Source of the DNA: Candidatus Atribacteria bacterium
Lineage (GTDB): Bacteria > Atribacterota > JALVIU01
NCBI GenBank assembly: GCA_027028665.1
Contig: JALVIU010000072.1
Coordinates: 1 to 16,264, forward strand
DNA length: 16,264 bases
Reading direction: 5' to 3'
This document shows positions 3,889-11,870 of this stretch, one piece after another. Both the position numbers and the translations under genes were made by a program. The notes beneath the pieces were generated by a model. That model ran no database searches. It had not been told where the DNA came from and saw nothing but the letters and a program-made list of their open reading frames with translations. The number at the start of each line of letters is the position of its first letter. Positions within the stretch are counted from its first letter, which is position 1.

Positions 3889-3927
3889 AAAAGAAACTAA
3901 AAAAATCTAAAAAAATTTTTATAAAAA
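3887..3927 (+). promoter_or_regulatory. A-tract region upstream of the heat-shock promoter (UP-element-like)
   Basis: Four runs of A (3887-3892, 3899-3905, 3909-3915, 3923-3927) are centred 10-13 bp apart, with a T5 run at 3916-3920, directly upstream of the -35 box. Runs at about helical spacing suggest intrinsic bending or an UP element that boosts RNA polymerase binding. This is inferred from base composition and position only. Confidence 0.45.
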
Positions 3928-3929
3928 TA

Positions 3930-3950
3930 CTTGACAGAATTTCTATAAAG
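3930..3950. promoter_or_regulatory. 21-bp dyad over the -35 box, candidate HspR operator (HAIR-like)
   Basis: The arms CTTGACAGAA and TTCTATAAAG flank a central T and pair at 8 of 10 positions. Total length and 7-7-7 layout match the HspR inverted repeat CTTGAGT-N7-ACTCAAG: the left half agrees at 5 of 7 positions, the right at 4 of 7. The dyad covers the -35 hexamer, so a bound repressor would block RNA polymerase. The hspR gene closes the operon that starts here. Part of the left-half match comes from the -35 sequence itself, so the assignment is tentative. Confidence 0.5.
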
Positions 3951-3959
3951 AGTTATAAT
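3931..3959 (+). promoter_or_regulatory. Consensus housekeeping sigma promoter of the heat-shock operon
   Basis: TTGACA (3931-3936) and TATAAT (3954-3959) are both perfect consensus hexamers, separated by the ideal 17 bp. Transcription should start at about 3966, leaving an unstructured purine-rich leader of about 67 nt before the first hsp20. A consensus promoter with no alternative-sigma signature suggests control by repression. It is the only strong promoter I see on the plus strand. Confidence 0.85.
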
Positions 3960-4032: not shown

Positions 4033-4482
4033 ATGGCAATTGTAAAATATGATCCTTGGAGAGATGTTCTTAGTTTGAGAGATGAAATAGATAGACTCTT
4101 TGAGGATTTTTTCCCTGTAAAAAGCAGTGAGAGAAGGGATTATCTATCAGAGGTTTGGGCTCCAGCTATAGATATATATGAGACAAAGGATGATGTGGTA
4201 GTTAAAGCAGAGCTTCCTGGCATGAGCAAGGAAGATATAAAAATAAATATTGTAGATAATTCCCTTATAATAGAAGGCGAGAAGAAACAGGAAAAAGAAG
4301 TAAAAGAAGAGAATTATTATAGAGTAGAAAGAAGATATGGTGCATTTAGAAGAGTAGTAGAAATTCCTGTACCTGTAAAGACAGAGAATGTTGAAGCAAC
4401 TTATAAAGACGGGGTACTTGAAATAAAACTTCCAAAGAAAGAAGAAGCAAAACCTAAGGAGATAGAGGTAAAAGTAAAGTAG
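4033..4482 (+). CDS. hsp20: Hsp20/alpha-crystallin small heat-shock protein, copy 1
   Basis: This 149-residue ATP-independent holdase binds unfolding proteins and keeps them refoldable by DnaK/Hsp100. The N-terminal arm (1-40) is amphipathic and begins with the typical Y-D-P-W-R. The alpha-crystallin domain spans ~42-135 and includes A-x-D-I-Y-E, the A-E-L-P-G core and G-V-L-E-I-K-L-P-K at 127-135. The C-terminal tail carries I144-E-V146, the I-x-I/V motif that locks dimers into oligomers. It is the first gene after the promoter, and the strongest ribosome site in the window precedes it. Its last codons and stop lie within a perfect palindrome. A paralogue lies at 7644-8069. Confidence 0.95.
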   Translation: MAIVKYDPWRDVLSLRDEIDRLFEDFFPVKSSERRDYLSEVWAPAIDIYETKDDVVVKAELPGMSKEDIKINIVDNSLIIEGEKKQEKEVKEENYYRVERRYGAFRRVVEIPVPVKTENVEATYKDGVLEIKLPKKEEAKPKEIEVKVK

Positions 4483-4505
4483 GGAGGTAGCTACCTCCCT
4501 ACTTT
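4476..4505. repeat. Perfect 30-bp palindrome containing the hsp20 stop codon
   Basis: The arms AAAGTAGGGAGGTAG (4476-4490) and CTACCTCCCTACTTT (4491-4505) are exact reverse complements with no spacer, and the TAG stop (4480-4482) lies in the left arm. The RNA would form a strong GC-rich hairpin. What follows is a pyrimidine run (TTCTTCCTCTCT-like) and not a clean U-tract, so a partial terminator, an RNase barrier protecting hsp20 mRNA, or an attenuator before dnaJ are all possible. The core AAAGTAGGGA...TCCCTACTTT recurs after the second hsp20. Confidence 0.8.
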
Positions 4506-4553: not shown

Positions 4554-5633
4554 ATGGCAGAAAAGGATTACTACAAAATATTAGGAGTGCCTGAAAATGC
4601 AACAGATGAACAAATAAAGAGGGCATTTAGGGAGCTTGCTAAAAAGTATCACCCTGATCGTAATCCCGGTGATAAGACTGCTGAAGAAAAATTTAAAGAA
4701 ATAAATGAAGCATATGAGGTGCTTAGTGATCCACAAAAGAGAAAACAATACGATCAATTTAGAAAATATAAGGAACAAGGTTATAATTTTTCTGGATTTG
4801 GTAAAGGACAAGAATTTGGCAAAGGTTTTGGAGGAGGTTTTCATTTTGACTTAGGTGACCTTGGTGATTTATTTGATCTCTTTTCTGATAGAAGATTTTA
4901 CCAGGAGCGCCAGGCACATGCTCCTCAGAAAGGTAAAGATCTTTTGTATGAAACAACAATACCTTTTGAAACAGCAGTAAAAGGTGGAGAAATTACAATT
5001 GGGGTGGAAAGAGAGGAGCCATGTCCTACATGTCATGGTTCAGGAGCTGCACCAGGTTCCCGTACTATGACATGTCCTGTATGTCATGGCACAGGTAAGG
5101 TAGAAGAATTTCAAGGTCTATTTGGGATTTCTAAACCCTGTCCCAGATGCATGGGAAAGGGTATTATATATGAAACTCCATGTCCTGTATGTCATGGCAC
5201 AGGTAAGGTAAAGAAAATAAAACATATAAAGGTAAAGATTCCTCCAGGGATAAAAGATGGTTCAAAGATTAGAATAAAAGGAGAAGGAGATATAGGGATA
5301 AAAGGTGGTGAAAGAGGAGATCTATATCTTAGAATAAGAATTGCACCACATTCTCAGTTTGAGAGAAAAGGTGATGACATATATTCTTCTGTAAAAGTAG
5401 ATTTTATAAAAGCAATCCTTGGAGGAGAGGTGATTGTAGATACTATTGATGGAAAGGTAAAGTTAAGAATTCCTCCAGGTACACAACCTGGAACTCTTTT
5501 AAGAATTAGAGGAAAGGGTGTAAAAAAAACTGGAGGGAGAGGTAGAGGGGATCATTACGTAAGAATAGATGTGACTCTTCCCAAGAGAGTTACCCCTAAG
5601 CAAAGAAAATTATTAGAAGAATTTTATAAATAA
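4554..5633 (+). CDS. dnaJ: DnaJ (Hsp40) co-chaperone, zinc-finger type
   Basis: This is a class A J-protein of 359 residues that delivers substrates to DnaK and stimulates its ATPase. The J domain (~4-70) has H33-P34-D35. A Gly/Phe region follows at ~75-105. The zinc region (157-217) has four C-x2-C-x-G-x-G repeats (C-P-T-C, C-P-V-C, C-P-R-C, C-P-V-C), and the C-terminal beta-sandwich substrate domains follow. All hallmark residues are intact. ATG 4554 has AGAGGGTGAG upstream. It precedes dnaK by 21 nt, the reverse of the common dnaK-dnaJ order, and no grpE lies nearby. Two zinc repeats are encoded by an identical 32-nt stretch. Confidence 0.97.
5071..5210 (+). repeat. 32-nt exact direct repeat inside dnaJ (5071-5102 and 5179-5210)
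   Basis: The DNA for two of the four zinc-binding repeats ([10 protein letters not shown]) is identical over 32 bases, synonymous positions included, at 108-bp spacing. Protein similarity is expected for this domain, but silent-site identity is more than that requires. Recent local gene conversion or chance in a biased codon set could explain it. Confidence 0.75.
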
Positions 5634-5654
5634 GTGAAAGGAGGAGTGAAAACG

Positions 5655-7610
5655 ATGGGAAAGGTTTTAGGTATAGACCTTGGAACAACTAACTCTTGCA
5701 TGGCTATAATGGAAGGCGGTAAACCTACCGTTATTCCAAATGCAGAAGGTGGTAGAGTAACACCATCTGTTGTAGCATTTACAAAAACAGGTGAAATTTT
5801 AGTAGGGCAGCTTGCAAAAAGACAAGCTATTACGAATGCAGAAAATACTGTTTTTTCTGTTAAAAGATTAATGGGTAGAAGATATGATGATGAGATGGTG
5901 CAGAAGGCCAAAGCTATACTTCCCTATAAGATAGTAAAGGGAGATAAAGGTGATGCAAGAGTTGAAATAAAGGGGAAGCAATATACACCCCAAGAGATTT
6001 CAGCAATGATTCTTAAAAAACTTAAACAGGACGCAGAGGCATATCTTGGTGAAAAGATTACAGATGTAGTAATTACTGTGCCTGCCTATTTTAATGATAG
6101 CCAGAGACAGGCTACAAAAGATGCAGGAAGAATCGCAGGTCTTAATGTATTAAGAATTATAAATGAACCTACAGCTGCATCTTTGGCTTATGGGTTGGAT
6201 AAAAATAAAAATCAAAAGATTGCAGTTTATGATTTAGGTGGAGGAACATTTGATATCTCCATTCTTGAGATAGGTGATGGTGTATTTGAAGTAAAAGCAA
6301 CAAATGGTGACACCTTCCTGGGCGGAGATGATTTTGATCAAAGAATCATTGACTATCTTGCAGATGAATTTAAGAAGGAACATGGTATTGATCTTAGAAA
6401 TGACCAGATGGCTCTTCAGAGGTTAAAAGAGGCAGCGGAAAAGGCAAAGATAGAGCTTTCTACAGCAATGCAGACAGAGATTAATTTACCATTTATTACA
6501 GCTGATGCATCTGGCCCAAAACACCTTAATATGACTCTTACAAGGGCAAAATTAGAACAATTAACTATAGATCTTATTGAAAAGACTATTGGTCCATGTA
6601 AAGATGCATTAAATGACGCAGGATTAAAACCAGAAGATATAGATGCAGTAATTTTAGTAGGTGGAATGACAAGAATGCCAAAGGTTCAGGAAGTAGTAAA
6701 GAATTTCTTTGGTAAAGAACCGCATAAGGGGGTAAATCCAGATGAAGTAGTGGCAATAGGTGCTGCAATTCAAGGTGGTGTATTGAAGGGTGATGTAAAA
6801 GATGTAGTACTCCTTGATGTAACACCACTTTCTCTTGGCATTGAAACCCTTGGTGGAGTATTTACCAAGCTTATAGAGAGAAATACTACAATTCCTACAA
6901 GAAAGAGTGAGATCTTTACAACTGCCGCAGATAATCAGACATCTGTGGAGATACATGTATTGCAAGGTGAAAGACCTTTGGCAAAGGATAATACAACACT
7001 TGGTAAATTCCATTTGGTTGGTATACCGCCTGCACCAAGAGGTGTACCACAGATCGAGGTAACTTTTGATATAGATGCAAATGGTATACTTCATGTTTCG
7101 GCAAAAGATCTTGGTACAGGAAAAGAACAAAAGATCACAATAACTGCAACAACAAGCTTATCGGAAGAGGAGATTCAGCAAAAAATTAGAGAAGCGAAGG
7201 AGCATGAAGAAGAGGATAGAAGGAAGAAAGAGGAGATTGAGACAAGAAATAAAGCAGATTCTCTTGCATATGAAATGGAGAAGTTGTTAAATGAAAACAA
7301 AGATAAGATTCCTGAGGCAGATAGGGCAGAACTTGAACAGGCAATAAATAATTTGAAAGAGGCACTAAAAGGAACAGATGTAGAGAAGATAAAGAGTGCA
7401 ATGGATGAGCTTAATGCAAAGTCTCATAAGGTTGCACAGATTATATATGCTCAAAATCAGCAAGGTGGCTCACAGGGTAATACTCAGGCAGGGTCTCAGA
7501 CTGGCACACCAGGTGGTAGCACTACTACAGATAGTGGGTCTTCCTCAGGAGATAATAATGATGATAATGTAGTAGATGCAGATTATGAAGTAGTTGATGA
7601 TAATAAATAG
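5655..7610 (+). CDS. dnaK: DnaK (Hsp70) chaperone
   Basis: This 651-residue ATP-driven chaperone refolds and disaggregates clients with DnaJ and Hsp100. The nucleotide-binding domain (~1-380) begins I-D-L-G-T-T-N-S (7-14) and contains [11 protein letters not shown] and V-G-G-M-T-R-M-P-K. The linker and substrate domain follow, with [14 protein letters not shown], then a helical lid. The tail (~600-635) is a Gly/Ser/Thr/Gln/Asn-rich linker, and the protein ends in an acidic [11 protein letters not shown] motif typical of bacterial DnaK. I set the start at ATG 5655, with AAAGGAGG at 5637-5644, because it gives the family N-terminus M-G-K-V-L-G-I-D; the in-frame GTG at 5634 would read through the ribosome site. 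The gene sits in the heat-shock operon without grpE. Confidence 0.98.
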
Positions 7611-7643: not shown

Positions 7644-8069
7644 ATGGCAATTCCAAAAAAGAGAACTAAAAAAAACGAACTTTGGGATCTTAGGAGAGAA
7701 GTAGATAGGCTTTTCAGGGAGTTTATAGAAGGGCCGAGAAATATGGTATATCTTCCAGCCCTTGATATATATGAAGATGAAGATAAAATTGTGATTGAGG
7801 CAGATATTCCAGGGGTAAAAAAGGAAGATATTAAGATAAGCGTAGAAGATAACATACTTACAATAAAAGCAGAAAAGAAGAAAGAAGAGAAAGCAGAAGA
7901 AAAAGATATTGTATATGAAGAAATTGCATATGGCCTGTATGCAAGAGAGATCGATCTGCCTCATACCGTAGATACTGAAAAGATTGAGGCAGAATATAAA
8001 GATGGGGTACTTAAGATATCCCTTCCAAAAAAAGAAGAAGTAAAACCAAAGCAAATAGAGATAAAGTAG
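7644..8069 (+). CDS. hsp20: Hsp20/alpha-crystallin small heat-shock protein, copy 2
   Basis: This second holdase has 141 residues. The N-terminal arm is short and basic (A-I-P-K-K-R-T-K-K-N). The alpha-crystallin domain begins at the L-P-A-L-D-I-Y-E block and includes the A-D-I-P-G core and G-V-L-K-I-S-L-P-K from residue 121. I138-E-I140 is at the C-terminus. It is clearly a paralogue of copy 1, shares a 22-nt identical start region and also ends inside a palindrome. The stretch after the core is rich in Lys/Glu (K-K-K-E-E-K-A-E-E-K). It lies 33 nt after dnaK and 39 nt before the protease gene. Mixed oligomers with copy 1, or a different client range through the differing N-terminal arms, are possible. 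Confidence 0.95.
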   Translation: MAIPKKRTKKNELWDLRREVDRLFREFIEGPRNMVYLPALDIYEDEDKIVIEADIPGVKKEDIKISVEDNILTIKAEKKKEEKAEEKDIVYEEIAYGLYAREIDLPHTVDTEKIEAEYKDGVLKISLPKKEEVKPKQIEIK

Positions 8070-8091
8070 GGAATATTCCCTACTTTATCTC
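8058..8091. repeat. Perfect 34-bp palindrome containing the second hsp20 stop codon
   Basis: The arms GAGATAAAGTAGGGAAT (8058-8074) and ATTCCCTACTTTATCTC (8075-8091) are exact reverse complements without spacer, and the TAG stop (8067-8069) is in the left arm. The next gene's ribosome site (AGGAGGAG) follows within a few bases and there is no U-run, so simple intrinsic termination is unlikely. The 10-bp core is shared with the palindrome after copy 1. A 3' stabiliser, a processing site or a protein-binding dyad are the main options. Confidence 0.82.
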
Positions 8092-8108: not shown

Positions 8109-8945
8109 ATGTTTGGAGATATTATATGGCTTATTATCCTTTTTTCATTTTTTATGCCCACATTAGAAAAAAGGATGCTTGAATATAATAGATTAAAACT
8201 TATAAGGGTTATAGAGAAAAAGAGAAAGTCCAGAGTAATTACTATAATTCACAGACAGGAATCCATAAGTTTTTTTGGTTTGCCTATATCGAGATATATT
8301 GATATAGAGGATTCAGAACAGATATTACGTGCAATAAGACTTACTCCAGATGATATGCCTATAGATCTGGTGTTACATACACCAGGTGGGTTAGTGCTTG
8401 CTGCATCTCAAATAGCTCAAGCACTAAAGAGACACCCTGCCAAGGTGACAGTATTTGTACCACATTATGCTATGTCTGGAGGTACACTTATTGCCCTTGC
8501 AGCAGATGAGATAGTGATGGATGAAAATGCAGTACTTGGTCCAGTGGACCCTCAACTTGGGAACTATCCAGCTGCATCATTACTTAAGACCCTTAGGGTA
8601 AAGGGTCCACAGAATGTAGATGACAATACTGTTGTGATGGCAGATATTGCAGAAAAGGCCATATTGCAGATAAAGGATTTTGTATATGATTTATTAAAGG
8701 AAAAGATGGACCCAGATAAGGCTGAGAAGCTCGCAGAGGAGTTGTCAACAGGTAGGTGGACCCATGATTATCCATTGGATATAGAAAGACTAAGGGCAAT
8801 TGGAATAAACATCACAGTAGGGCTTCCAGATTATATATATGACCTTATGGAACTTTATAGACAAACTGATCAGAGAAGACCATCTGTAAATTATATTCCA
8901 CTTCCATATAAGAGTGGAAATGATCACAATGGAAAGTCGCAGTAA
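8109..8945 (+). CDS. SDH-family Clp-fold serine protease, membrane anchored
   Basis: The 278-residue protein matches the serine dehydrogenase proteinase family (Clp/crotonase fold, related to SppA/ClpP). One hydrophobic segment at ~5-17 should anchor it, followed by a basic stretch. The Clp-fold core contains L-H-T-P-G-G (89-94, oxyanion region) and H-Y-A-M-S123-G-G-T, with S123 the likely nucleophile, then A-D-E-I-V-M-D-E-N-A-V-L-G-P-V-D-P-Q. The C-terminal third is more variable. Family members are found in many thermophiles and archaea, and their substrates are poorly known. Here it lies between hsp20 and a Hsp100 gene, inside a heat-shock operon, which suggests a role in removing damaged, perhaps membrane, proteins. 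AGGAGGAG precedes ATG 8109. Confidence 0.88.
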   Translation: MFGDIIWLIILFSFFMPTLEKRMLEYNRLKLIRVIEKKRKSRVITIIHRQESISFFGLPISRYIDIEDSEQILRAIRLTPDDMPIDLVLHTPGGLVLAASQIAQALKRHPAKVTVFVPHYAMSGGTLIALAADEIVMDENAVLGPVDPQLGNYPAASLLKTLRVKGPQNVDDNTVVMADIAEKAILQIKDFVYDLLKEKMDPDKAEKLAEELSTGRWTHDYPLDIERLRAIGINITVGLPDYIYDLMELYRQTDQRRPSVNYIPLPYKSGNDHNGKSQ

Positions 8946-8977
8946 GGATTGAGTTCTTAATGTAGGAGGTGATATTT

Positions 8978-11428
8978 ATGGATTTTTCAAGATTTACAGA
9001 AAAGGCACAAGAGGTAATACTTAAAGCACAAGAGAAGCTAAAAGAATATAATCAGAATCAGCTTGGAACAGAACATATCCTTTATGGACTACTTGTTCAA
9101 AAGGAAGGAGTAATAGCAGAGATTTTCGAAAAATTGAATATAGATGTTGCGAAGGCAAGACAGAGAGTAGAGGAAGTAATTTCTCAAAATATGGGAGTTA
9201 GAGTAGTAGGTCAGCCTGGGGGAAGTATAGATCAAGTATACATTACTCCACATGCAAAGAGTGCCCTTGAACTTGCAGAGATTGAAGCAGAGAGACTTAA
9301 AGATAATTATGTAGGAACAGAGCATATCTTAATCGGACTTTTATCTGAAGAGGAAGGACTTGCAGCAAGAATTTTGGGAGAACTTGGCATAGATAAAGAA
9401 AAAATTTATCAAGTATTAAAGGACATAAGAGGTTCAAGTCGAAGAACTGAGCAGAGAGAAGAAACGGGGTATATGTTTCTTAAAAAGTACTCAAGAGATC
9501 TTACAGAACTTGCGAAACAGGGGAAACTTGATCCAGTTATAGGAAGAGATGAAGTAATAACTCGTGTTATTCAGATTCTTTCAAGAAGGACGAAGAATAA
9601 CCCTGTACTTATTGGAGAAGCAGGAGTGGGGAAGACAGCTGTAGTAGAAGGTCTTGCTCAAAAAATAGTAAACAATGATGTGCCAGATAATCTAAAAGGC
9701 AAGAAGCTTATACAACTTGATCTTGCTGCAATGGTTGCAGGTTCTAAGTATAGAGGAGAGTTTGAAGAAAGATTAAAGGGCGTAATAGATGAAGTAATCA
9801 AATCTCAAGGTGAGATTATACTTTTTATTGATGAACTTCATACAGTTGTTGGTGCAGGTGCCGTAGAGGGTGGCATGGATGCATCCAATATTTTAAAACC
9901 TGCACTTGCGCGAGGAGAATTACAGTGTATAGGTGCAACTACTCTTGATGAGTATAGAAAATATATAGAAAAAGATCCAGCCCTTGAGAGAAGATTTCAA
10001 CCTGTATTTGTAGAGGAACCGAGTGTTTCAGATACAGTGGAGATTTTAAGGGGCTTAAGGGATAAATATGAAGCCCACCATAAGGTAAAGATTGAGGATG
10101 AGGCATTAGAAAAAGCGGCATATCTATCTCATAGATACGTAACAGATAGATTTTTACCTGATAAAGCAATTGATCTTATAGATGAGGCATCTGCGAAGAA
10201 AAGAATAGAGTACTATACAATACCTGAAGAAGTAAAAAGATTAGAAAAAGAACTTGAGAAGTTGAATAAAGAAAATGAATCTGCAGTTGCACATAAGGAG
10301 TATGAACGTGCGATAGAGCTAAGGGATAAGATAAAAGAAACAGAAAAAAGGCTGAAAGAGGCAAAAGAGAAGTGGGATGTTACACAGAGAAATAAGCATC
10401 CAAGTGTAAGTGCAGAAGATATAGCAGAAGTAGTATCTAAATGGACAGGGATTCCTGTAAATAAAATGTTTGAAGAAGAGATTGAGAAGCTTCTTAAGAT
10501 GGAGGATATTCTCCATAAGAGACTTGTAGATCAAGAAGAGGCAGTAAAAGCAGTAAGTGAAGCTATAAGAAGATCTCGTGCAGGATTGTCTGATCCGAAT
10601 AGACCAATTGGATCATTTATATTTCTTGGTCCTACAGGTGTAGGAAAAACAGAGCTTGCAAAGGCATTAGCGGAATTTTTGTTTGATAGAGAAGATGCCC
10701 TCATAAGGATAGATATGTCAGAATATATGGAAAAGTTTTCTGTTTCAAGATTGGTAGGTGCCCCTCCAGGCTATGTAGGATATGAGGAAGGAGGCCAGCT
10801 TACAGAAGCAGTAAGACGCAGACCGTACTCTGTGGTACTCTTTGATGAGATAGAAAAGGCTCATCCAGATGTATTTGATATATTGCTTCAGATTCTTGAT
10901 GATGGTCGTCTTACAGATTCTCAGGGCAGGGTAGTGGATTTTAGAAATACAGTTATAATTATGACTTCGAATATTGGTGCAAGGCTCATAGAAGACTATA
11001 TAAAGAGCAAAGGAACAAAAGATTTTACCCTTTTGAAAGAGAATGTACGAGAGGAGCTCAGAAAATTTGTAAGGCCAGAATTTTTAAATAGAGTGGATGA
11101 AATTGTAATATTTAAACCACTCGGAAGAGATGAGATCTATCAAATTATAGATATACTTATAAAAGGACTTAGAAAACGTCTCAGTGTAAGAAAGATAAGA
11201 CTTACTTTAGATGAAAAAGTTAAAGACTTACTATTTAAAGAAGGCTATAACCCTGTTTATGGGGCAAGACCCCTTAAAAGGGCGATACAGAGGCTTATAG
11301 AAAACCCTCTTTCTTCATATATACTAAGAGGAAAATTTAAAGAAGGAGACCATGTACTTGTAACTCTCTCAGATGATGGTCAAGTAGTATTTAAAAAACA
11401 GACTGAAGAGGGAGTTGATACCCTATGA
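8978..11428 (+). CDS. clpC: ClpC-like Hsp100 AAA+ unfoldase lacking a clear ClpP-docking loop
   Basis: This 816-residue protein unfolds or disaggregates proteins using ATP. Two Clp_N repeats (~1-145) are followed by AAA-1 with G-E-A-G-V-G-K-T (213-220) and Walker B D285-E286. A short middle coiled region with a UVR-like [10 protein letters not shown] (from 441) is a ClpC trait; ClpB has a much longer M-domain. AAA-2 has G-P-T-G-V-G-K-T (551-558) and D623-E624. Between T-S-N-I-G-A (663-668) and R-P-E-F-L-N-R (699), where ClpC carries [L/V]-G-F for ClpP, no such tripeptide is present, as in ClpB. I chose ATG 8978 because AGGAGGTGAT (8964-8973) serves it; the in-frame GTG 8969 lies inside that site. 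ctsR, mcsA and mcsB are not adjacent. Confidence 0.93.
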
Positions 11429-11835
11429 AGGAAAGAAGACCTCTTTATGTAATTAGTGTGGCTGCAAGTTTAGTAAATATGCATCCACAGACACTGAGAT
11501 TATATGAGAAAAAAGGATTCGTAAATCCACAGAGATATAGAAATAGAAGGTTATATACCGAAAAAGATATAGAAAAATTACGTTATATATATGAACTTAC
11601 CCATATAAAGGGTGTTAATATGGCAGGAGTAGAGATAATTCTTGAAAAAGAAAAAGAAGTGGAGAAGCTTCAACAAAAGATACGGGAACTGGAAGAGGAA
11701 TTTGAAAGAAGACTTAAGGAAGTAGAAAGGCAAGTAGAAGAGGAGATTGATAGAATAAAGAAAGAATTTTATGAAAATAAAAATCTTCCTGTGTTGCCAG
11801 GAAAAGGAGTTTTGATAATACGAGAGTATAAGTAA
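11425..11835 (+). CDS. hspR: HspR-type MerR-family heat-shock repressor
   Basis: This 136-residue protein is a winged-helix DNA-binding protein of the MerR family. The N-terminus ([23 protein letters not shown], 6-28) is the HspR signature, and [13 protein letters not shown] forms the wing and second helix. [11 protein letters not shown] follows. Residues ~72-118 are a long charged coiled coil, presumably for dimerisation, and longer than in minimal HspR proteins. HspR represses heat-shock genes, with DnaK as co-repressor in Streptomyces. The ATG overlaps the clpC stop (ATGA), so it is made with the operon it probably represses. The candidate operator is the dyad at 3930-3950. Confidence 0.92.
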
Positions 11836-11839
11836 ACAT

Positions 11840-11870
11840 AGATGATAGGTCCCAATGGGACCTATCATCT
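11840..11870. terminator. Perfect 15-bp hairpin between convergent hspR and rng (bidirectional, no U-tract)
   Basis: The arms AGATGATAGGTCCCA (11840-11854) and TGGGACCTATCATCT (11856-11870) flank one base. It lies 4 nt after the hspR stop and touches the last base of the rng stop on the other strand. Position and symmetry fit a shared 3' end for both transcripts. Neither direction continues into a U-run (plus strand continues TAAAAAAAA), so it is not a classical intrinsic terminator. Confidence 0.65.

Follow-up and report, generated by a model that had tools for sequence, protein, structure and literature searches.

The DNA analysed here, to which we refer as the window, is a stretch of 16,264 nucleotides from Candidatus Atribacteria bacterium (phylum Atribacterota; contig JALVIU010000072.1). 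It carries a co-directional run of genes in the order Hsp20, DnaJ, DnaK, Hsp20, SDH-family protease, Clp ATPase, and HspR (table 1). From the first Hsp20 through Clp, the intergenic gaps are about 71, 0, 33, 39, and 23 bp, while the Clp and HspR genes overlap. The HspR operator CTTGAGT-N7-ACTCAAG has no match in the window with up to three mismatches allowed, and no consistent match was obtained in relatives of the window genome. An imperfect 19-nt inverted repeat at 3913-3954, different from this known operator, overlaps the -35 to -10 region of the operon promoter. The window also contains three perfect palindromes at 4476-4505, 8058-8091, and 11840-11870, with arms of 15, 17, and 15 nt and a loop of 0-1 nt: The first two, each located where an hsp20 gene stops, have the common sequence AAAGTAGGGA, and the third lies between hspR and a convergent RNase G-like gene. 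They may be attenuators or processing sites tuning different levels within the operon.

Table 1. Features of the heat-shock operon and of the Clp ATPase that it encodes
Feature	Position	Strand	Remarks
Sigma-70-type promoter, TTGACA-N17-TATAAT, ahead of operon	3931..3959	+	Read from sequence
Hsp20, first operon gene	4033..4482	+	Profile match
DnaJ	4554..5633	+	Sequence
DnaK	5634..7610	+	Sequence
Second Hsp20	7644..8069	+	Profile match
SDH-family Clp/SppA-fold serine protease, N-terminal membrane helix	8109..8945	+	23 bp upstream of annotated Clp ORF
Loopless short-middle-domain Clp ATPase ("ClpCx")	8978..11428	+	816 aa from ATG 8978 (819 aa from GTG 8969)
N-domain, two Clp_N repeats, without ClpG-type N1 extension	8978..9433	+	
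AAA1 module	9500..10213	+	Walker A GEAGVGKT, pore loop KYRGEFE, Walker B LFIDELH; ClpB-side in trees
ClpC-sized middle domain, UVR-like; second ClpB coil absent	10217..10393	+	
AAA2 module and D2-small domain	10601..11362	+	Walker A GPTGVGKT, pore loop GYVG
D2 segment without ClpP-docking tripeptide, residues 671-701	10979..11071	+	Predicted helix-turn-helix
HspR heat-shock repressor (MerR family)	11425..11835	+	NF047375, 105.5 bits (cut-off 105); overlaps end of Clp gene

The Clp ATPase is encoded by the forward ORF 8969-11428 (819 aa), for which the ATG at 8978 is more likely the start than the GTG at 8969, because the GTG falls within the ribosome-binding site. Profile matches delineate two Clp_N repeats, two AAA domains, and the D2-small domain, with a subthreshold UVR match at residues 426-458 (Pfam, 19.8 bits vs. 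a cut-off of 21.5). The protein begins directly at Clp_N, without an N1 domain ahead, and its Walker, pore-loop, and arginine-finger motifs are all intact. Its middle domain, taken from DLIDEA to WTGIP, has about 90 residues versus 154 in ClpB and displays a tyrosine (EYERA) at the position of F436 in Staphylococcus aureus ClpC.

Loss of the ClpP-Docking Loop and Distribution of the Clp Family

A preliminary description of this DNA had pointed to a segment of the second ATPase module, D2, in which the tripeptide for docking ClpP seemed to be missing, and alignment, motif scanning, and structure modelling all confirm it. When aligned with solved ClpC structures, residues 671-701 lack the tripeptide and show a deletion of about five residues at the VGF-type site. 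The pattern [ILVMF]G[FL] was searched through the entire D2 module and is absent from it, such tripeptides being limited elsewhere in the protein to IGL at residue 122 (N-domain) or the pore loop GYVGY. The AlphaFold model (mean pLDDT 84) predicts a helix at 671-679, a six-residue turn, and a second helix at 686-700, with no protruding loop. A docking loop at a shifted position was also considered and rejected, as within D2 the relaxed pattern [ILVMF]G[FLYIVM] matches nothing other than the pore loop, GYVGY. The likeness of this segment to its ClpB equivalent, which had been noted earlier, is right for its length and for the missing loop.

In an alignment of 123 Clp proteins, the rows of ordinary ClpC have the docking motif, and those of ClpB and of all phylum orthologues do not. 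In a motif scan, for which some rows are duplicates of one locus, it is present in all 75 rows of ordinary ClpC and in 32 of 32 Chloroflexota relatives, and it is absent from 32 of 32 ClpB, both ClpK, and all 18 phylum orthologues of the loopless Clp. One of these orthologues (L119) was flagged merely for an AGF in the second helix, its segment being equally short. Because the motif is present in all ordinary ClpC and absent from ClpB, ClpK, and the phylum orthologues, this comparison of sequences argues that its absence is not due to chance. A lone decay event is ruled out, since the absence is fixed across all orthologues of the phylum. In two Rokubacteria-like ClpC proteins (L184 and L192), the docking position is occupied by PGF, an atypical tripeptide, instead of [LIV]GF.

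The genome from which the window derives (1.79 Mb in 413 contigs, 90% complete) also encodes a second, canonical ClpC with VGF, located beside radA, a tig-clpP-clpX-lon cluster, and hslUV. Hence, the possibility that ClpP is missing from the genome is ruled out by the finding of ClpP, ClpX, and Lon together with HslUV, and the loopless Clp, which has 56% core identity with the canonical ClpC, is one more ATPase in a cell whose ClpP system is complete, and not its sole ClpC. Whereas clpP is thus present elsewhere in the genome, clpB was not seen in this fragmented, 90% complete assembly, even by searching with an HMM for the ClpB middle domain.

Across 50 Atribacterota genomes, orthologues of the loopless Clp occur in 21, all belonging to families f1, f3, f4, f6, and f7, and ClpB (detected by its middle-domain HMM) in 18, all of families f2 and f5. 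None of the 50 has both, and nearly every one has canonical ClpC. Because the pattern of exclusion tracks one split within the phylum, it may reflect a single replacement and not a series of independent events. In most relatives with contigs of sufficient length, the usual locus is Hsp20-DnaJ-HspR followed by Clp; a few have Hsp20-DnaJ or DnaJ upstream, with HspR undetected, and SDH is absent from all these loci.

Loop-bearing sisters of this family are found in Chloroflexota. The best 29 matches from 121 genomes have equal middle-domain length, the same kind of linker between N-domain and D1, and a GF tripeptide kept in all, and at least 10 of these best 29 present the order DnaJ-HspR-Clp. 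Also, 12 of the 30 best-matching Chloroflexota genomes possess ClpB, versus none of the Atribacterota genomes in which the loop is lost; this distribution is suggestive of ClpP uncoupling and ClpB loss going together.

The SDH Protease and Its Genomic Neighbours

The gene directly upstream of Clp (8109-8945) had been described as encoding an SDH-family protease of Clp fold, and this identification is well founded: It matches NF047768 with 432 bits (cut-off 250) and its product has an N-terminal hydrophobic helix. Residues S123 and K183 are invariant in an alignment of 17 homologues, and the structure model fits the folds of SppA and of ClpP about equally well. Given this neighbour, does the unfoldase feed the membrane-anchored SDH protein, so that the two make up a proteolytic pair at the membrane without ClpP, as had been proposed? 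The genes do adjoin in an operon, separated by only 23 bp, and the protease does have a ClpP/SppA fold. Moreover, in heat-resistance islands on plasmids of the α-proteobacteria Agrobacterium, Paracoccus, and Shinella, an SDH gene lies about 3 kb from, and co-directional with, a ClpK that is also devoid of the docking tripeptide, and one Chloroflexota genome (L264:3-7308) shows independently that SDH can lie close to an HspR operon, about 2.5-6 kb from a DnaJ-HspR-DnaK-Clp cluster. Yet the comparison across genomes went against the proposal, since within the phylum the adjacency of SDH and Clp is private to the window lineage among the genomes compared, while the linkage with HspR, DnaJ, and Hsp20 is conserved. 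Nearly all phylum relatives have SDH, but elsewhere in the genome, including those that have ClpB and no loopless Clp. In two complete, single-contig genomes, SDH and Clp are separated by about 0.97 Mb (G002, 810 vs. 1,776 kb) and 1.66 Mb (G016, 3.03 vs. 1.37 Mb), and a Clp gene is found in none of 20 SDH neighbourhoods of phylum relatives, which extend up to 8 kb per side and are in several cases cut by contig ends. Among Chloroflexota, which commonly have the Clp family, only 5 of 61 genomes contain SDH, and its recurrent partner is a rhomboid gene, adjoining it in 8 of 16 loci from Chloroflexota and Thermodesulfobacteriota. An element for docking SDH is neither known nor visible. Taking all this together, we regard such a proteolytic pair as extremely improbable. 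Shared regulation suffices to account for adjacency without a physical pair, and SDH is most likely a mere passenger in the Clp operon. It looks like a stress-associated membrane protease that has been recruited into heat-shock loci, and our search of the literature for a proteinase function of SDH returned nothing relevant.

The adjacency of SDH and rhomboid genes recurs in loci L261, L262, L266-L269, L271, and L272, and again in the α-proteobacterial islands L167, L171, and L172, and the two proteins form a candidate two-protease membrane module. On the plasmids of Agrobacterium, Paracoccus, and Shinella, the island run is ClpK-HdeD-rhomboid-SDH-TrxC-antiporter, with FtsH genes adjoining it and, in Agrobacterium, Hsp20 genes too. 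Within the ClpK run of the three islands, we noted SDH, rhomboid, and a gene annotated as a NADH-dehydrogenase/ETC complex I subunit; the excerpted account of island components in a review (PMC8129007) mentions no SDH, rhomboid, or complex I-subunit gene.

Ancestry of the ATPase Modules

Trees of the D1 and D2 modules were built after removing the N-domain, the middle domain, and the loop, with support expressed as ultrafast bootstrap/SH-aLRT; a DNA-pattern scan of genome contigs, which yielded mainly canonical ClpC and ClpB, was used as a comparison set only. In these trees, the ATPase modules of the loopless Clp group with ClpB and the Chloroflexota family (99/98), and the tree of D1 alone gives the same split (99/98). 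The linker between N-domain and D1 has the ClpB form xDPxAExKYxxLEKYxRDL. With the ClpB equivalog model TIGR03346 (cut-off 1232), the window protein scores 1148 bits, below the cut-off; phylum proteins score 1148-1171, a Chloroflexota one 1206, ordinary ClpC 1033-1074, and ClpB 1382. The ClpK model gives 862.6 bits versus a cut-off of 1900. AU tests leave alternative placements unrejected, including that with ordinary ClpC (p 0.19-0.69). The window protein is separate from the other phylum members in the bootstrap trees, but a joint clade is equally good by the AU test (p 0.785).

These data suggest that the loopless family occupies a position between ClpC and ClpB, with a leaning to ClpB, and that simple decay of the ClpC encoded in the same genome does not account for the protein. 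It could still have arisen as a paralogue of that ClpC which lost the loop, its affinity with ClpB in the trees being an artefact: Grouping with the ClpC of the phylum (p 0.21) or of the same genome (p 0.19) is compatible with the AU test, and the middle domain is of ClpC type. Nevertheless, we consider this origin unlikely in view of the placement with ClpB in unconstrained trees, which D1 alone reproduces, of the ClpB form of the linker, and of the DnaJ-HspR-Clp synteny shared with Chloroflexota. The alternative is about origin, not function, and would be compatible with a disaggregase. The ClpC architecture originally assigned to the protein applies to the order of its domains and the size of the middle one; it probably does not extend to where its ATPase modules come from. 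As for ClpK (L167:6011-8917 and L171:1027-3921), it groups with ClpC in the D1 tree and with some ClpB in the D2 tree, possibly because it is a mosaic or because of a long-branch artefact.

Function and Comparison with Known Hsp100 Systems

What, then, does this additional ATPase do? We think it probable that it is a hexameric, ClpP-uncoupled Hsp100 threading ATPase, acting as the heat-shock disaggregase of its lineage in place of ClpB. Several lines of evidence point in this direction: The loop is absent from all phylum orthologues, the gene belongs to an operon with HspR, DnaJ, and Hsp20 and in the 50 genomes never coexists with ClpB, and canonical ClpC with ClpP, ClpX, Lon, and HslUV covers the work of ClpP. 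Furthermore, the ATPase core leans to the ClpB side, as indicated by the trees and an intermediate ClpB HMM score, with its motifs intact, and both the missing IGL/F motif and the short middle domain are also features of ClpG and ClpL, which are known as stand-alone disaggregases. According to PMC11006417 and PMC8129007, the IGL/F motif is missing from ClpB, ClpG, and ClpL, the disaggregases known to act without ClpP, and the middle domain is short in ClpG and ClpL, which are autonomous. In Streptomyces and mycobacteria, HspR is documented to control dnaK and clpB; in Deinococcus, its control covers hsp20, dnaK, dnaJ, and clpB (PMC2687793).

In such a system, heat stress would relieve the repression by HspR, with Hsp20 and DnaJ holding or marking the clients that have aggregated. 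The Clp ring would then thread chains one at a time past its two pore loops and, having no tripeptide for ClpP docking, would free them for refolding. Degradation would presumably remain with other machines encoded in this genome, namely canonical ClpC-ClpP, ClpXP, Lon, and HslUV. The preliminary description had envisaged a ClpB-like disaggregase working with DnaK. Disaggregation agrees with the missing loop, the operon, the exclusion of ClpB, and the leaning of the core. Cooperation with DnaK in particular is open to doubt, since the protein has no counterpart to the second half of the ClpB middle domain, and a ClpB-DnaK belt is not expected with a middle domain so short. Without the second ClpB coil, control is more likely to follow the mode of ClpC, ClpL, and ClpG, with ring contacts by the middle domain and substrate binding by the N-domain. 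Control through paired rings as in ClpC or ClpL (PMC12583610) is plausible by analogy, because the aromatic residue at the S. aureus ClpC F436 position is kept as tyrosine. ClpG and ClpL possess N-terminal domains dedicated to binding aggregates, which this protein lacks; its targeting to aggregates may fall to the Hsp20 and DnaJ encoded with it.

Two other functions deserve consideration. The protein might be a non-disaggregating chaperone or remodeller of specific clients, for instance a partner that holds or unfolds substrates of Hsp20 or DnaJ, general disaggregation being achieved otherwise. In this respect, it has neither the DnaK-binding coil of ClpB nor the N1 or NTD of ClpG and ClpL, and its full set of pore motifs would demonstrate a capacity for threading only. 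Such a role would, however, fit poorly with the replacement of ClpB and with the conserved heat-shock operon, and appears distinctly unlikely. A partnership with ClpP might alternatively have been retained, via mixed rings with the VGF-bearing canonical ClpC or by another contact, considering that the cell has both canonical ClpC and ClpP and that Chloroflexota relatives in the same operon order retain LGF or IGF. We find this very unlikely, given that the loss of the loop is fixed in all phylum orthologues, that the core is distant from canonical ClpC, and that there is no shifted tripeptide.

The disaggregase reading has implications beyond this locus. Tentatively, we see here the possibility, somewhat short of an even chance, of a further Hsp100 disaggregase architecture on the ClpB branch, one with a ClpC-sized middle domain that replaced ClpB in most families of the phylum and whose Chloroflexota sisters, in the same DnaJ-HspR operon, have the docking loop. 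If so, one family would comprise both degradation-coupled and refolding-only states, and a step from ClpC to ClpB may be preserved in which the loop was lost before the middle domain grew. How aggregates are rescued in bacteria that lack both ClpB and ClpG, and whether a ClpC-type machine might do it without ClpP, is posed as an open question in a review (PMC8129007). A whole ClpB-less lineage with a heat-shock-operon Clp, its ClpP dock deleted, beside a normal ClpC bears on this question, which the natural pairs of loop-plus (Chloroflexota) and loop-minus proteins make directly testable, with a bearing also on ClpB evolution. A limited search of the open-access literature found no description of the family, which by itself does not prove novelty.

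The loopless Clp is a variant within the Hsp100 kind. It resembles ClpB/Hsp104 in having two AAA modules, no ClpP tripeptide, and a heat-shock neighbourhood of HspR, DnaJ, and DnaK, and its ATPase core and N-D1 linker lean to ClpB by the unconstrained trees and HMM score, but its middle domain has about 90 residues rather than 154, the DnaK-binding half being missing, and it falls under the ClpB equivalog cut-off. With ClpC of Bacillus subtilis and S. aureus, it shares domain order, a length of about 820 aa, and a short UVR-like middle domain, including the aromatic position of the S. aureus protein; it differs by lacking the [LIV]GF docking loop and by its ClpB-type linker and D1, canonical ClpC being a separate protein. 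The short middle domain and missing tripeptide recur in ClpG/ClpK, together with an Hsp20-containing stress locus and, at times, a nearby SDH. However, the loopless Clp has no N1 domain or C-terminal extension, its gene order is conserved across the families of one phylum rather than borne on mobile islands, and ClpK does not group with it in either the D1 or the D1+D2 trees. ClpL also has a short middle domain and no ClpP tripeptide, whereas the loopless Clp has a full N-domain of two Clp_N repeats where ClpL has its small NTD, and is distant from it in trees; N-terminal domains and tree position thus rule out membership in ClpG or ClpL. Closest in locus and form is the short-middle-domain Clp in the HspR operon of Chloroflexota, with the DnaJ-HspR-Clp order, the linker, the middle-domain length, and about 60% identity in common, yet with the LGF/IGF docking loop kept and frequent coexistence with ClpB. 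The loopless Clp is neither ClpB (by its middle domain), nor ClpC (by its loop), nor ClpG or ClpL (by their N-terminal domains), and is most likely disaggregase-like in its action.
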